Source: an uncultured Bacteroidia bacterium
GTDB lineage: Bacteria > Bacteroidota > Bacteroidia > J057 > CALLMJ01
DNA length: 44,251 nucleotides
Assembly (NCBI GenBank): GCA_938005475.1
Contig: CALLNY010000090.1
Span: 1 to 44,251 of the forward strand
Reading direction: 5' to 3'
A program made the translations under genes and the position numbers. Each line of letters starts with the position of its first letter. Position 1 is the stretch's first letter. The notes below the pieces were generated by a model. That model did no database searches and was not told the origin of the DNA. It saw only the letters and a list, made by a program, of their open reading frames with translations. Below, in pieces: positions 29,758 to 33,539 of the stretch.

Positions 29758-31977
29758 TTAAGAATTTAAGATTTTTGGAATTGCGTTTTCGTATAAGTTT
29801 TGAAAGTCTTCAAAAGTTCCCCAGTTTTCATCATTCACGATAATTTCTTTGTTAGTAACGACACCAAGCGGTTTAAAATTGATTTTCAACAAGTTCAGAT
29901 GGTGAATAAGTTCATTTTCTTTATCTTTGGTGGCTGTAACCACCACTCTTCCCCCACTTTCTCCAAACCAAAAAGCATCTTCACGTATTTTAGAAAAATT
30001 TTTGACGTGGAAACCTTTTTTCCCTGCAAAAGCGCTTTCCATGAGCGTAATAATCAAACCACCATCCGATACATCATGTGCAGAGTTAATGATTCTTTGC
30101 TCAATCAGTTCTATGATCGCTTTTTGAAGCAATAGCTCTTCTGTTAAATTGAGGTAAGGGGCAGGAGAATAACGAACGTTGTGATAGTGATATAAATAAG
30201 CGGAACAACCCAAGTCCTCCACAATCTTACCGATTAAGAAAATGGTATCTTTTTCATTTTGGAAGGCTATACTAGTAATATTTTGAGGCTTTTCTATTAA
30301 CCCAACCATACCAATAGTAGGAGTTGGATAGACCGCGGCTTCTGGTGATTGATTATAAAAACTTACATTACCACCTGTTACAGGTAAATCAAACATTTCG
30401 CAAGCTTCTTTCATACCCAGAATAGCTTCTTTGAACTGAAAGTAAACTTCGGGATTATAAGGATTACCAAAATTTAAGCAGTTCGTTATACCGAGAGGGT
30501 GAGCCCCAGTACACACTAAATTCCTTGCCGCTTCTGCTACCGCTAATGCACAGCCTATTTTAGGATTTGCATATACATAACGCGAGTTACAATCTGTTGT
30601 CATAGCAATAGATTTTTGTGTTCCTTTAATATGTACAATAGCGGCATCCGCGGCTAAATTTGTCGTTACTGTTGCAACCCCCACCATACTATCATACTGG
30701 CGCGTCACCCAACGCTTAGAAGCAATGCTAGGCAATTGCAACAAAAATTCTGTTGCTTCTTTTAAATGCTTGGGCTGAGGCACTTTTTTAAGATTAAATT
30801 TTTGTATCTCCTGAAAATATTGAGGTTCTTGGAAGTCTCTATAATAAACAGGAGCACCTCCGCCCAATACCAAACTTTCCGCAGGAATTTCGCCTACTAA
30901 CTCATCATAAAAAAAATATCGTATTTTTTTGCTATCTGTAACAACTCCTATCTGTTCACAGGGCAAATCCCATTTTTCAAATACGGCTTTTACTATATCT
31001 ACTTTCTCTTTTTCTGCTACAATCAACATACGTTCTTGTGACTCAGAAAGCAATAATTCAAATGGTTGCATATCACTTTGCCGCATAGGAACTTTTTCTA
31101 ACCATAAATCCATACCTACCTTTCCTTTGGCAGACATCTCAGACGTCGAACAAGCAATTCCTGCCGCCCCCATATCTTGCATTCCTACTACAGCACCAGT
31201 CCGGATACATTCTAATGTGGCTTCTAATAACAATTTTTCGTAGAACGGGTCTCCGATTTGAATGGAAGGTAATTTCTCGGAACTTTTTACTGATAAATCT
31301 TCTGATGCAAAAGTAGCACCATGAATACCATCCTTCCCTGTTGCCGCACCCACAATAAAAACAGGATTTCCCACGCCTAATGCAATTGCTGATACGGTCT
31401 CCCCTTTTTTAACTATCCCCACTGACATTACATTTACCAATGGATTCGATTGGTAGCATTCGTCAAAATCTATTTCGCCGCCAACAGTAGGTACACCAAA
31501 ACAATTTCCATAATGCGAAATACCACTTACAACACCTTTCAATAAAAATTGAGTGCGTGGATGATTTAAATTACCGAAACGTAAAGAATTTAAAGTAGCT
31601 ATAGGTCTTGCTCCCATCGTAAAAATATCACGATGAATACCACCTACCCCTGTTGCCGCTCCCTGAAAAGGTTCTACCGCAGAAGGATGATTATGAGACT
31701 CTATTTTAAAACATACCGCTAAACCATCTCCGATATCCATCAAACCTGCATTCTCTTCTCCCGCTCCCGCTAATACACGCTTCCCCTTTTTCGGTAATTG
31801 CTTGAGCCATACAATCGAATTTTTATATGAACAATGCTCCGACCACATCACTGAATATACACTTAACTCCGTAAAATTCGGAACCCTTCCCAGTATATTA
31901 CAAATTTTTTGAAATTCCTCTTCTAATAATCCCAACTTCTTTGCTGTCTCTTCCGTAGTAAGTGGATTAAATACCAT
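29758..31977 (-). CDS. purL: Phosphoribosylformylglycinamidine synthase subunit PurL
   Basis: ATP-dependent step four of purine synthesis, converting FGAR to FGAM using ammonia supplied by PurQ. The 739-residue length fits the small PurL that needs separate PurQ and PurS, not the fused 1300-residue form. Motifs: YSVMWSEHCSYKNS (FGAR binding), GGIHRDIFTMGARPIA, MQDMGAAGIACSTSEMSAKG, and LPVTGGNVSFYNQSP in the second half. Both halves of the AIRS-type fold are present. No purS or purQ is in the window. It is the first gene of the tight four-gene operon with the gamma carbonic anhydrase, rimO and pbpC. Confidence 0.96.
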   Translation of the reverse strand: MVFNPLTTEETAKKLGLLEEEFQKICNILGRVPNFTELSVYSVMWSEHCSYKNSIVWLKQLPKKGKRVLAGAGEENAGLMDIGDGLAVCFKIESHNHPSAVEPFQGAATGVGGIHRDIFTMGARPIATLNSLRFGNLNHPRTQFLLKGVVSGISHYGNCFGVPTVGGEIDFDECYQSNPLVNVMSVGIVKKGETVSAIALGVGNPVFIVGAATGKDGIHGATFASEDLSVKSSEKLPSIQIGDPFYEKLLLEATLECIRTGAVVGMQDMGAAGIACSTSEMSAKGKVGMDLWLEKVPMRQSDMQPFELLLSESQERMLIVAEKEKVDIVKAVFEKWDLPCEQIGVVTDSKKIRYFFYDELVGEIPAESLVLGGGAPVYYRDFQEPQYFQEIQKFNLKKVPQPKHLKEATEFLLQLPSIASKRWVTRQYDSMVGVATVTTNLAADAAIVHIKGTQKSIAMTTDCNSRYVYANPKIGCALAVAEAARNLVCTGAHPLGITNCLNFGNPYNPEVYFQFKEAILGMKEACEMFDLPVTGGNVSFYNQSPEAAVYPTPTIGMVGLIEKPQNITSIAFQNEKDTIFLIGKIVEDLGCSAYLYHYHNVRYSPAPYLNLTEELLLQKAIIELIEQRIINSAHDVSDGGLIITLMESAFAGKKGFHVKNFSKIREDAFWFGESGGRVVVTATKDKENELIHHLNLLKINFKPLGVVTNKEIIVNDENWGTFEDFQNLYENAIPKILNS

Positions 31978-32002: not shown

Positions 32003-32109
32003 GTAATTTTATGTTATCAGTTCTTTTTTCAGATAATAATTGGAAATTCAATTTTTACCCCTGATTATCAATATTTTATATACCATTCTAAAAAATATAC
32101 GTATTTTTA

Positions 32110-32141
32110 TTGACAAATATAAAAATTATTGCGTATATTTG
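32110..32141 (+). promoter_or_regulatory. Promoter of the candidate small RNA
   Basis: TTG (32110-32112), 21 bases, TATATTTG (32134-32141), a complete Bacteroidota-type promoter that is not close to any start codon. Transcription would begin near 32147. Confidence 0.6.
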
Positions 32142-32146
32142 CCTAA

Positions 32147-32251
32147 TAATTAGGTTCAATTTAAGTACTAGCTACACTATTCAAAACCTCTACAAGATAA
32201 CTAAACGCATGAGCTACCTGCCATAAATCATGGCAGGTATTTTGTTTTTTG
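32147..32251 (+). ncRNA. Candidate small RNA or leader/attenuator (about 105 nt)
   Basis: Region between a full promoter (32110-32141) and an intrinsic terminator (32215-32251). It has no long reading frame. ATG AGC TAC CTG CCA TAA at 32209-32226 encodes five residues (MSYLP) and its stop lies at the terminator loop, so a leader peptide controlling the hairpin is possible. The alternative is an independent small RNA. I recognise no Rfam family in it. The downstream plug gene has its own promoter, so read-through is not required. Confidence 0.4.
32215..32251 (+). terminator. Intrinsic terminator upstream of the T9SS plug gene
   Basis: Perfect 10-base-pair stem (32215-32224 with 32230-32239), 5-base loop, then TTTTGTTTTTTG. 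The end of the T-run is also the TTTG -33 element of the next promoter. Confidence 0.8.
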
Positions 32252-32278
32252 ATAATTCCATAAACCTTTATACTTTTG
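32248..32278 (+). promoter_or_regulatory. Promoter of the T9SS plug operon (leaderless geometry)
   Basis: TTTG (32248-32251), 19 bases, TACTTTTG (32271-32278). The ATG at 32283 follows after 4 bases. The -33 element overlaps the terminator T-run. Confidence 0.7.
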
Positions 32279-32282
32279 TAGT

Positions 32283-33539
32283 ATGTTCCGCATAATTTTT
32301 TATTCAATCTATTGGGCTTTATTCTTGGAGTGTAATGCTTTTGCACAATTTTATGAAAATAACGATAATGTATATAAAGAAAATATACGTTCAGTTCAAT
32401 GTTATAGAGGCAAAGATGAAAGGAATTTACCTTTCTTGTATTTAAAGGAAAGCAATCAAATAACCGTTGAATTTGATGAGTTAAGAGCTTCACCACAGGC
32501 TTATTATTTTTCTATACAACACTGTAATTACGATTGGGAACCTTCTCGTCTTATGGTATCCGATTATTGGGACGATTTATCCTACTTCCAAATTACCGAT
32601 TTTCGTTCGTCACAAAGTACTCTTATTCCTTATATTCACTACACCTTTCAAATCCCTAACAAGTTCAAAGTATCGGGAAATTATTTGGTAAAGGTATACA
32701 AAGATTTAGATGAAAATGATATCATTCTTACACGTAGAATTTTGGTTGTAGAAGACCCCCTAAAAATTAAATTAGGGGAGGGACAAGCAATTAGCGAAAA
32801 TGTTGCGGATAGATTTGCGATGCAATCCTTATTTTTTAATTTAATTCCAAATCCACAGTTTCCTTTACAAAATCCGCGTAGAGATATTAAAGTACGTGTA
32901 TTACAAAATGGGCGTTGGGAAACTTCCCGTGAATTAGAGCCTCTCTACATCTTGAATGACCGCATAGAGTACAGCTTTTCTGCTGCAAATGATTTTGAAG
33001 GGGGAAACGAGTTCCGAAGAGCAGACTTACGTTCCTATCGTTACCGCTCAGAAACAGTTGCCCGTTATGAAATACGAGAAGATATGGTCATCGCTTACCA
33101 AGTTGAAGATAAACCCAGAAGTTCTAATGTTTACCTGAAAGAATTTGATATGAACGGCGCTTTCTTTATTATCAATCGAGAATTTCCTATTTATGACGTA
33201 GAATCAGATTATATTAAAACCATTTTTACGTTAAAAGTAAATCAGCCCTACAAGCACGACGTGTATGTATTAGGAAGATTTAACGATTGGAAGTTTCGCA
33301 AGGAATGTAAAATGAAATATGACCCCGCTTATAAAGTGTATACCGCAGAAATTTGGCTTAAACAAGGGGTTTATGATTATTGCTACGCATTAAATAAAAA
33401 AGGGGAAATTGACGAACGCTCAATCGAAGGTTCTTTCTTTGAAACAGAAAATAATTACATGATTATCGTGTATTATCGCGGTCCTGCGGATTGGACCGAT
33501 AGGATTATTGGATTTAAAAAACTAGGAGTTAACGAGTAA
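32283..33539 (+). CDS. Type IX secretion system plug protein (DUF5103)
   Basis: 418 residues with an N-terminal signal peptide (MFRIIFYSIYWALFLECN, cleavage after about residue 22). The N-terminal domain carries the DUF5103 pattern: IRSVQCYRGKDE, LPFLYLKESNQITVEFDEL, YYFSIQHCNYDWEPSRL, YIHYTFQIPNKFKVSGNYLVKVY and LTRRILVVED. The C-terminal 90 residues (DVYVLGRFNDWKF) look like an Ig/CBM48-like module. In Flavobacterium this family was found as the plug bound to the SprA translocon of the type IX secretion system, acting at the outer membrane. The signal peptide fixes this ATG as the start, which the promoter places at or beside the mRNA 5' end. First gene of an operon with mazG and a flippase-like protein. 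Confidence 0.9.
   Translation: MFRIIFYSIYWALFLECNAFAQFYENNDNVYKENIRSVQCYRGKDERNLPFLYLKESNQITVEFDELRASPQAYYFSIQHCNYDWEPSRLMVSDYWDDLSYFQITDFRSSQSTLIPYIHYTFQIPNKFKVSGNYLVKVYKDLDENDIILTRRILVVEDPLKIKLGEGQAISENVADRFAMQSLFFNLIPNPQFPLQNPRRDIKVRVLQNGRWETSRELEPLYILNDRIEYSFSAANDFEGGNEFRRADLRSYRYRSETVARYEIREDMVIAYQVEDKPRSSNVYLKEFDMNGAFFIINREFPIYDVESDYIKTIFTLKVNQPYKHDVYVLGRFNDWKFRKECKMKYDPAYKVYTAEIWLKQGVYDYCYALNKKGEIDERSIEGSFFETENNYMIIVYYRGPADWTDRIIGFKKLGVNE

Follow-up and report, generated by a model that had tools for sequence, protein, structure and literature searches.

A predicted small RNA beside a type IX secretion plug gene is complementary to the core of a three-member small RNA family in an uncultured Bacteroidia bacterium

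The sponge RNA QrrX of Vibrio cholerae is encoded in an intergenic region and pairs with the conserved core of Qrr1-4, thereby inactivating them; it acts together with Hfq, and a LysR activator is encoded next door (PMC9732341). In the Bacteroidota, the FopS family of Bacteroides thetaiotaomicron comprises 14 paralogous small RNAs that have a seed near the 5′ end and are bound by RbpB, and the accessible part of that report mentions no antisense partner (PMC11697453). Independent small RNAs of Flavobacterium psychrophilum, Rfp18 among them, are predicted to pair with mRNAs, and the excerpts of that study used here describe no antisense partner family for them (PMC9723704). Searches of the literature, which covered it in part and at the level of titles and abstracts, found no RNA sponge studied in the Bacteroidota.

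The locus described here is in the window, the whole 44,251-nt stretch of contig CALLNY010000090.1 (assembly GCA_938005475.1) that was analysed, and all positions are in window numbering. It encodes a predicted small RNA (the window RNA) which, by analogy with QrrX, has a conserved segment that complements the conserved core of a paralogous set of small RNAs. Unlike QrrX, the window RNA adjoins a T9SS plug gene, its sequence is unrelated, the genome has no confident Hfq and the sponge function is a prediction. The paralogous set resembles FopS in being a small RNA family of the same phylum, in which an intrinsic terminator comes after a conserved, single-stranded segment, and differs from it in having three members, a core just 5′ of the terminator, no Rfam match and no RRM protein in the genome. 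With Rfp18 the window RNA shares an intergenic location, genus-level conservation and a host among the Bacteroidota with TAnnTTTG promoters.

The preliminary description of this DNA had proposed a promoter, TTG-N21-TATATTTG, upstream of the plug gene. Pattern scans confirmed it on the plus strand at 32110-32141, with the −33 TTG at 32110-32112 and the −7 box TATATTTG at 32134-32141, and in sigma-70 scans it matches at 11 of 12 positions and is the top site in 20 kb. Across ~430 kb of the window's genome (G000) the density of the Bacteroidota promoter motif is seven times higher in intergenic regions than in coding sequence. When the −7 box is set at −12 to −5, the position mapped in F. psychrophilum (PMC9723704), transcription is predicted to start at 32146, which would give an RNA of ~105 nt (32146-32250, plus strand). 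Hairpin scans likewise bore out the intrinsic terminator at 32215-32250, the stem of which (32215-32239) has 10 perfect pairs and a 5-nt loop and is followed by the T-run tail TTTTGTTTTT; it ranks first among 14 hairpin sites in 20 kb, with 0.1 terminator-like sites expected per 500 bases from local shuffles. Folding of the whole RNA outside the terminator is ordinary (z −1.6). An Rfam search of the unit gave no match above chance, in line with the earlier statement that no known RNA family is recognisable.

The ~430 kb of G000 yielded only two intergenic units in which such a promoter is followed by a strong terminator, the window unit being one of them; its own promoter and terminator make it a predicted independent transcription unit. 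The other is on the minus strand of stretch L125, from 19717 (G000:C24), where box and hairpin are 49 nt apart; it is ~140 nt 5′ of the next start codon and is a candidate small RNA or leader.

The unit was compared with that of one sister species of the same genus (G001; contig CALLMJ010000118.1, stretch L052), in which the DNA 5′ of plug has the same layout: TTG-N20-TAATTTTG is followed, after a brief interval lacking genes, by a GC hairpin and its T-run. The block ACAAGA.AAC....AACTAAACGC.TGA is conserved in both species save for a 4-nt insertion, with AACTAAACGC falling within 32189-32208 of the window RNA, and the terminator stem is altered on both sides in the sister with pairing preserved. 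The plug gene (PF17116, E 3e-38; 32283-33539, plus strand) encodes proteins that are 89% identical between the two species, and its four-fold degenerate sites are identical at 39/103 (38%), which indicates that neutral sites are near saturation. In both species the unit is found next to plug, despite a change in the genes that flank the two on the outside. In the window these are mazG and purL (29758-31977, minus strand), the latter being the divergent neighbour, which does not adjoin the unit in the other species; the sister has genes for an S1-domain protein and an M28 peptidase instead. The retention of promoter, core and terminator despite changed flanking genes and saturated neutral sites supports the small RNA that had been suggested from the window alone. 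In the interval from the S1-domain gene to the small RNA, the sister also carries a tandem array of GGTCATTGAGT(T/A)GGCGTTGCCGTAT in three almost identical copies (L052 ~2600-2680).

The expected conservation upstream of plug in relatives holds within the genus and not beyond it. Besides the unit itself and the family cores described below, a similarity search with the unit DNA across 60 relatives gave only short, chance-like matches. In 18 other genomes of the order, the DNA 5′ of plug contained nothing similar by eye, in a partial look with minus-strand loci unoriented, and motif searches of both strands of the same DNA found no copy.

The reverse complement of the conserved block, GCGTTTAGTT, is found in several other intergenic stretches, and each copy is followed on its own strand by a GC hairpin that ends in a T-run. 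A sequence model built from six such sites identifies exactly three strong members in each genome, all intergenic: member a (G000 C52:10875-10921(−); G001 C4:25387-25435(−)), member b (G000 C105:9912-9960(+); G001 C34:8099-8146(−)) and member c (G000 C89:10020-10062(+); G001 C66:566-612(+)). Orthologues were paired from flanking and terminator sequence and from start-to-core distances; the pairing of c is weak on sequence, and those of b and c both rest on short sequences. The core AGCGTTTAGTT is invariant in all six, and the two species show no difference in member a over 40 nt. The adjoining genes differ from member to member, and most members are missing a good −33 box. The core is 13, 14, 13, 13, 13 and 7 nt from the hairpin in the six members, whereas the predicted start-to-core distances (G000/G001) are 37/35 nt for a, 12/14 nt for b and 46/48 nt for c. 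A core held 13-14 nt from the terminator in five of six members, at 12-48 nt from the start, suggests a role at the RNA level. Like the window RNA, the family members would be transcribed as small RNAs.

The family is previously undescribed. Its loci have no Rfam match above chance, and it is carried by two of 395 genomes of the class: searches of the 393 others did not find it and returned two weak matches, neither with a terminator and one of them inside a gene. A search for mRNA targets through AACTAAACGCT, allowing one mismatch, gave no excess over a reversed control, and start-site matches of AACTAAACGCT included no evident orthologous pair between the species. A 13-bp inverted repeat with arms AACTAAACGCAT and ATGCGTTTAGTT is present in G001 (L066 1501-1538; G001:C23:21149-21186), in a gene-free stretch beside the start of a plus-strand gene; it contains the core in both orientations, possibly by chance.

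After these members, the match to the family model that ranks next in G000 falls on the window unit itself, on its minus strand (32187-32208, E 0.03). Sequence searches and duplex energies place the antisense segment of the window RNA, UCUACAAGAUAACUAAACGC, at 32189-32208 on the plus strand, and the core within it, AACUAAACGC (32199-32208), is the complement of the family's invariant core. Opposite GCGUUUAGUUAUUUUGUAGA of member a the segment forms 20 bp with one G-U; taken alone, this 19/20 antisense match has an E of ~0.06 in its own genome. Calculated duplex energies, terminators excluded, are −29.5, −28.0 and −18.4 kcal/mol for a, c and b, respectively. None of 500 dinucleotide-shuffled versions of one strand or the other equalled those of a and c, while member b and the three G001 pairings (~−19) amount to a ~12-bp core and are individually not significant against shuffles. 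Among 1433 intergenic segments (~430 kb), only family antisense strands pair with member a as well as or better than the window RNA; member c is paired slightly better by two unrelated segments, and for member b the window RNA does not stand out. The strongest argument is independent of these energies: the window RNA and the family each have a longest conserved run, and the two runs are exactly complementary, AACTAAACGC being antisense to the family's AGCGTTTAGTT. The window RNA thus has a conserved segment complementary to a small RNA core, as a sponge should, with strong pairing for a and c in G000. A point against the pairing is that some predicted folds leave the core only partly unpaired; duplexes in cells are a prediction.

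Since its core exactly complements that of the family, the window RNA is probably an antisense sponge and not a leader of plug. We put at roughly 60% the probability that an independent, terminated small RNA of ~105 nt pairs with three paralogous small RNAs and most likely acts as their sponge, as read from sequence. It would be made from its own promoter and end at its intrinsic terminator, and the segment UCUACAAGAUAACUAAACGC, just 5′ of that terminator, would base-pair with the family core AGCGUUUAGUU, the pairing being extended by AUUUUGUAGA in member a. Such pairing would most likely titrate or destabilise the three family RNAs, which are encoded elsewhere in the genome. No RRM protein (PF00076) was found in G000, in a search with a positive Bacteroides control, and no Hfq match passed the curated cut-off, so there is no evident counterpart of RbpB, which binds FopS, or of Hfq, with which QrrX works.

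The assignment of roles, with the window RNA as sponge and the family as regulators, is what we infer from these patterns. The roles may instead be reversed or mutual, the window RNA being a trans-acting regulator and the three family RNAs its decoys. Complementarity fits this equally well, and the window RNA has the better promoter match, most family members being without a good −33 box. Three paralogues with one invariant core nevertheless look like a regulator family, and the genome shows no enrichment of sites similar to the family core, so that no mRNA targets are visible for the window RNA either. Reversed roles are unlikely.

A second alternative, raised in part by the preliminary description, is a cis-acting leader or attenuator of plug in which the family RNAs, or translation of a five-codon frame, set read-through near the terminator. 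It would agree with the persistence of the unit next to plug under changed outer neighbours, and with the pairing segment ending 6 nt 5′ of the terminator stem. Against it stands a conserved proximal promoter, which the preliminary description had overlooked along with the antisense match to small RNA genes. In both species TTG-N19-TAnnTTTG is found between the terminator and plug, its box ending 4 nt before the ATG: in the window the TTG is at 32249-32251 and the box TACTTTTG at 32271-32278 (plus strand; placed from the sequence and from its position in the sister), and in the sister the box is at L052 2971-2978, within 2949-2983, the stretch that corresponds to 32249-32283 of the window. Under the box rule from PMC9723704, transcription of plug is predicted to start at 32283, the A of its ATG, and the mRNAs of this T9SS component are accordingly predicted to be leaderless in both species; leaderless mRNAs make up 5.5% of the mapped mRNAs in F. 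psychrophilum (PMC9723704). With a separate promoter 3′ of the terminator, the window RNA is unlikely to be a plug leader and plug is probably transcribed separately, which counts against the leader of a plug operon suggested earlier.

The proposed translation-coupled attenuation is not supported either. The frame MSYLP does exist (32209-32226, plus strand), but the sister has TTG instead of its ATG and different codons after it, and the 4-nt indel upstream leaves no possibility of a longer shared coding frame; MSYLP is probably not translated. No antiterminator or alternative pairing conserved between the two species was seen. Control of plug in cis is very unlikely.

About as improbable is a conserved small RNA that resembles the family's complement by coincidence, or because both contain a site acting in the DNA, such as an operator that occurs in either orientation. 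In favour of this, the sister pairings with single members do not exceed shuffles and the genome-wide 11-mer count is not above its control; the match nonetheless links the most conserved parts of the window RNA and the family, exactly and in both species, and the spacing of the core is fixed to the terminator, not the promoter, which argues against an operator. A particular operator shared by the window RNA and member a, TGATWATCAATAT, was considered and rejected: it is absent at the sister's window-RNA promoter and present elsewhere. This sequence, with five copies in ~430 kb, is found at 32062-32074, 5′ of the window RNA promoter, and also 5′ of member a in both genomes (G000 C52 ~10991(−), L129; L064); as it is missing 5′ of the window RNA in the sister, co-regulation is only a guess. 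A phage origin was rejected because the pattern matches in IMG/VR resemble protein-coding phage DNA and the family pattern has none.

The RNA family and its antisense partner are undescribed, and the proposed sponge mechanism is of a known kind. If the antisense sponge reading is true, it adds an undescribed small RNA family together with its sponge for the Bacteroidota, in which RNA regulation has been little explored, and gives a concrete RNA-RNA pair in a genome without an RRM protein or a confident Hfq. More tentatively, and with the balance clearly against it, the system may be an antisense network without known chaperones, in which one sponge beside plug titrates a three-member family and may couple it to type IX secretion.
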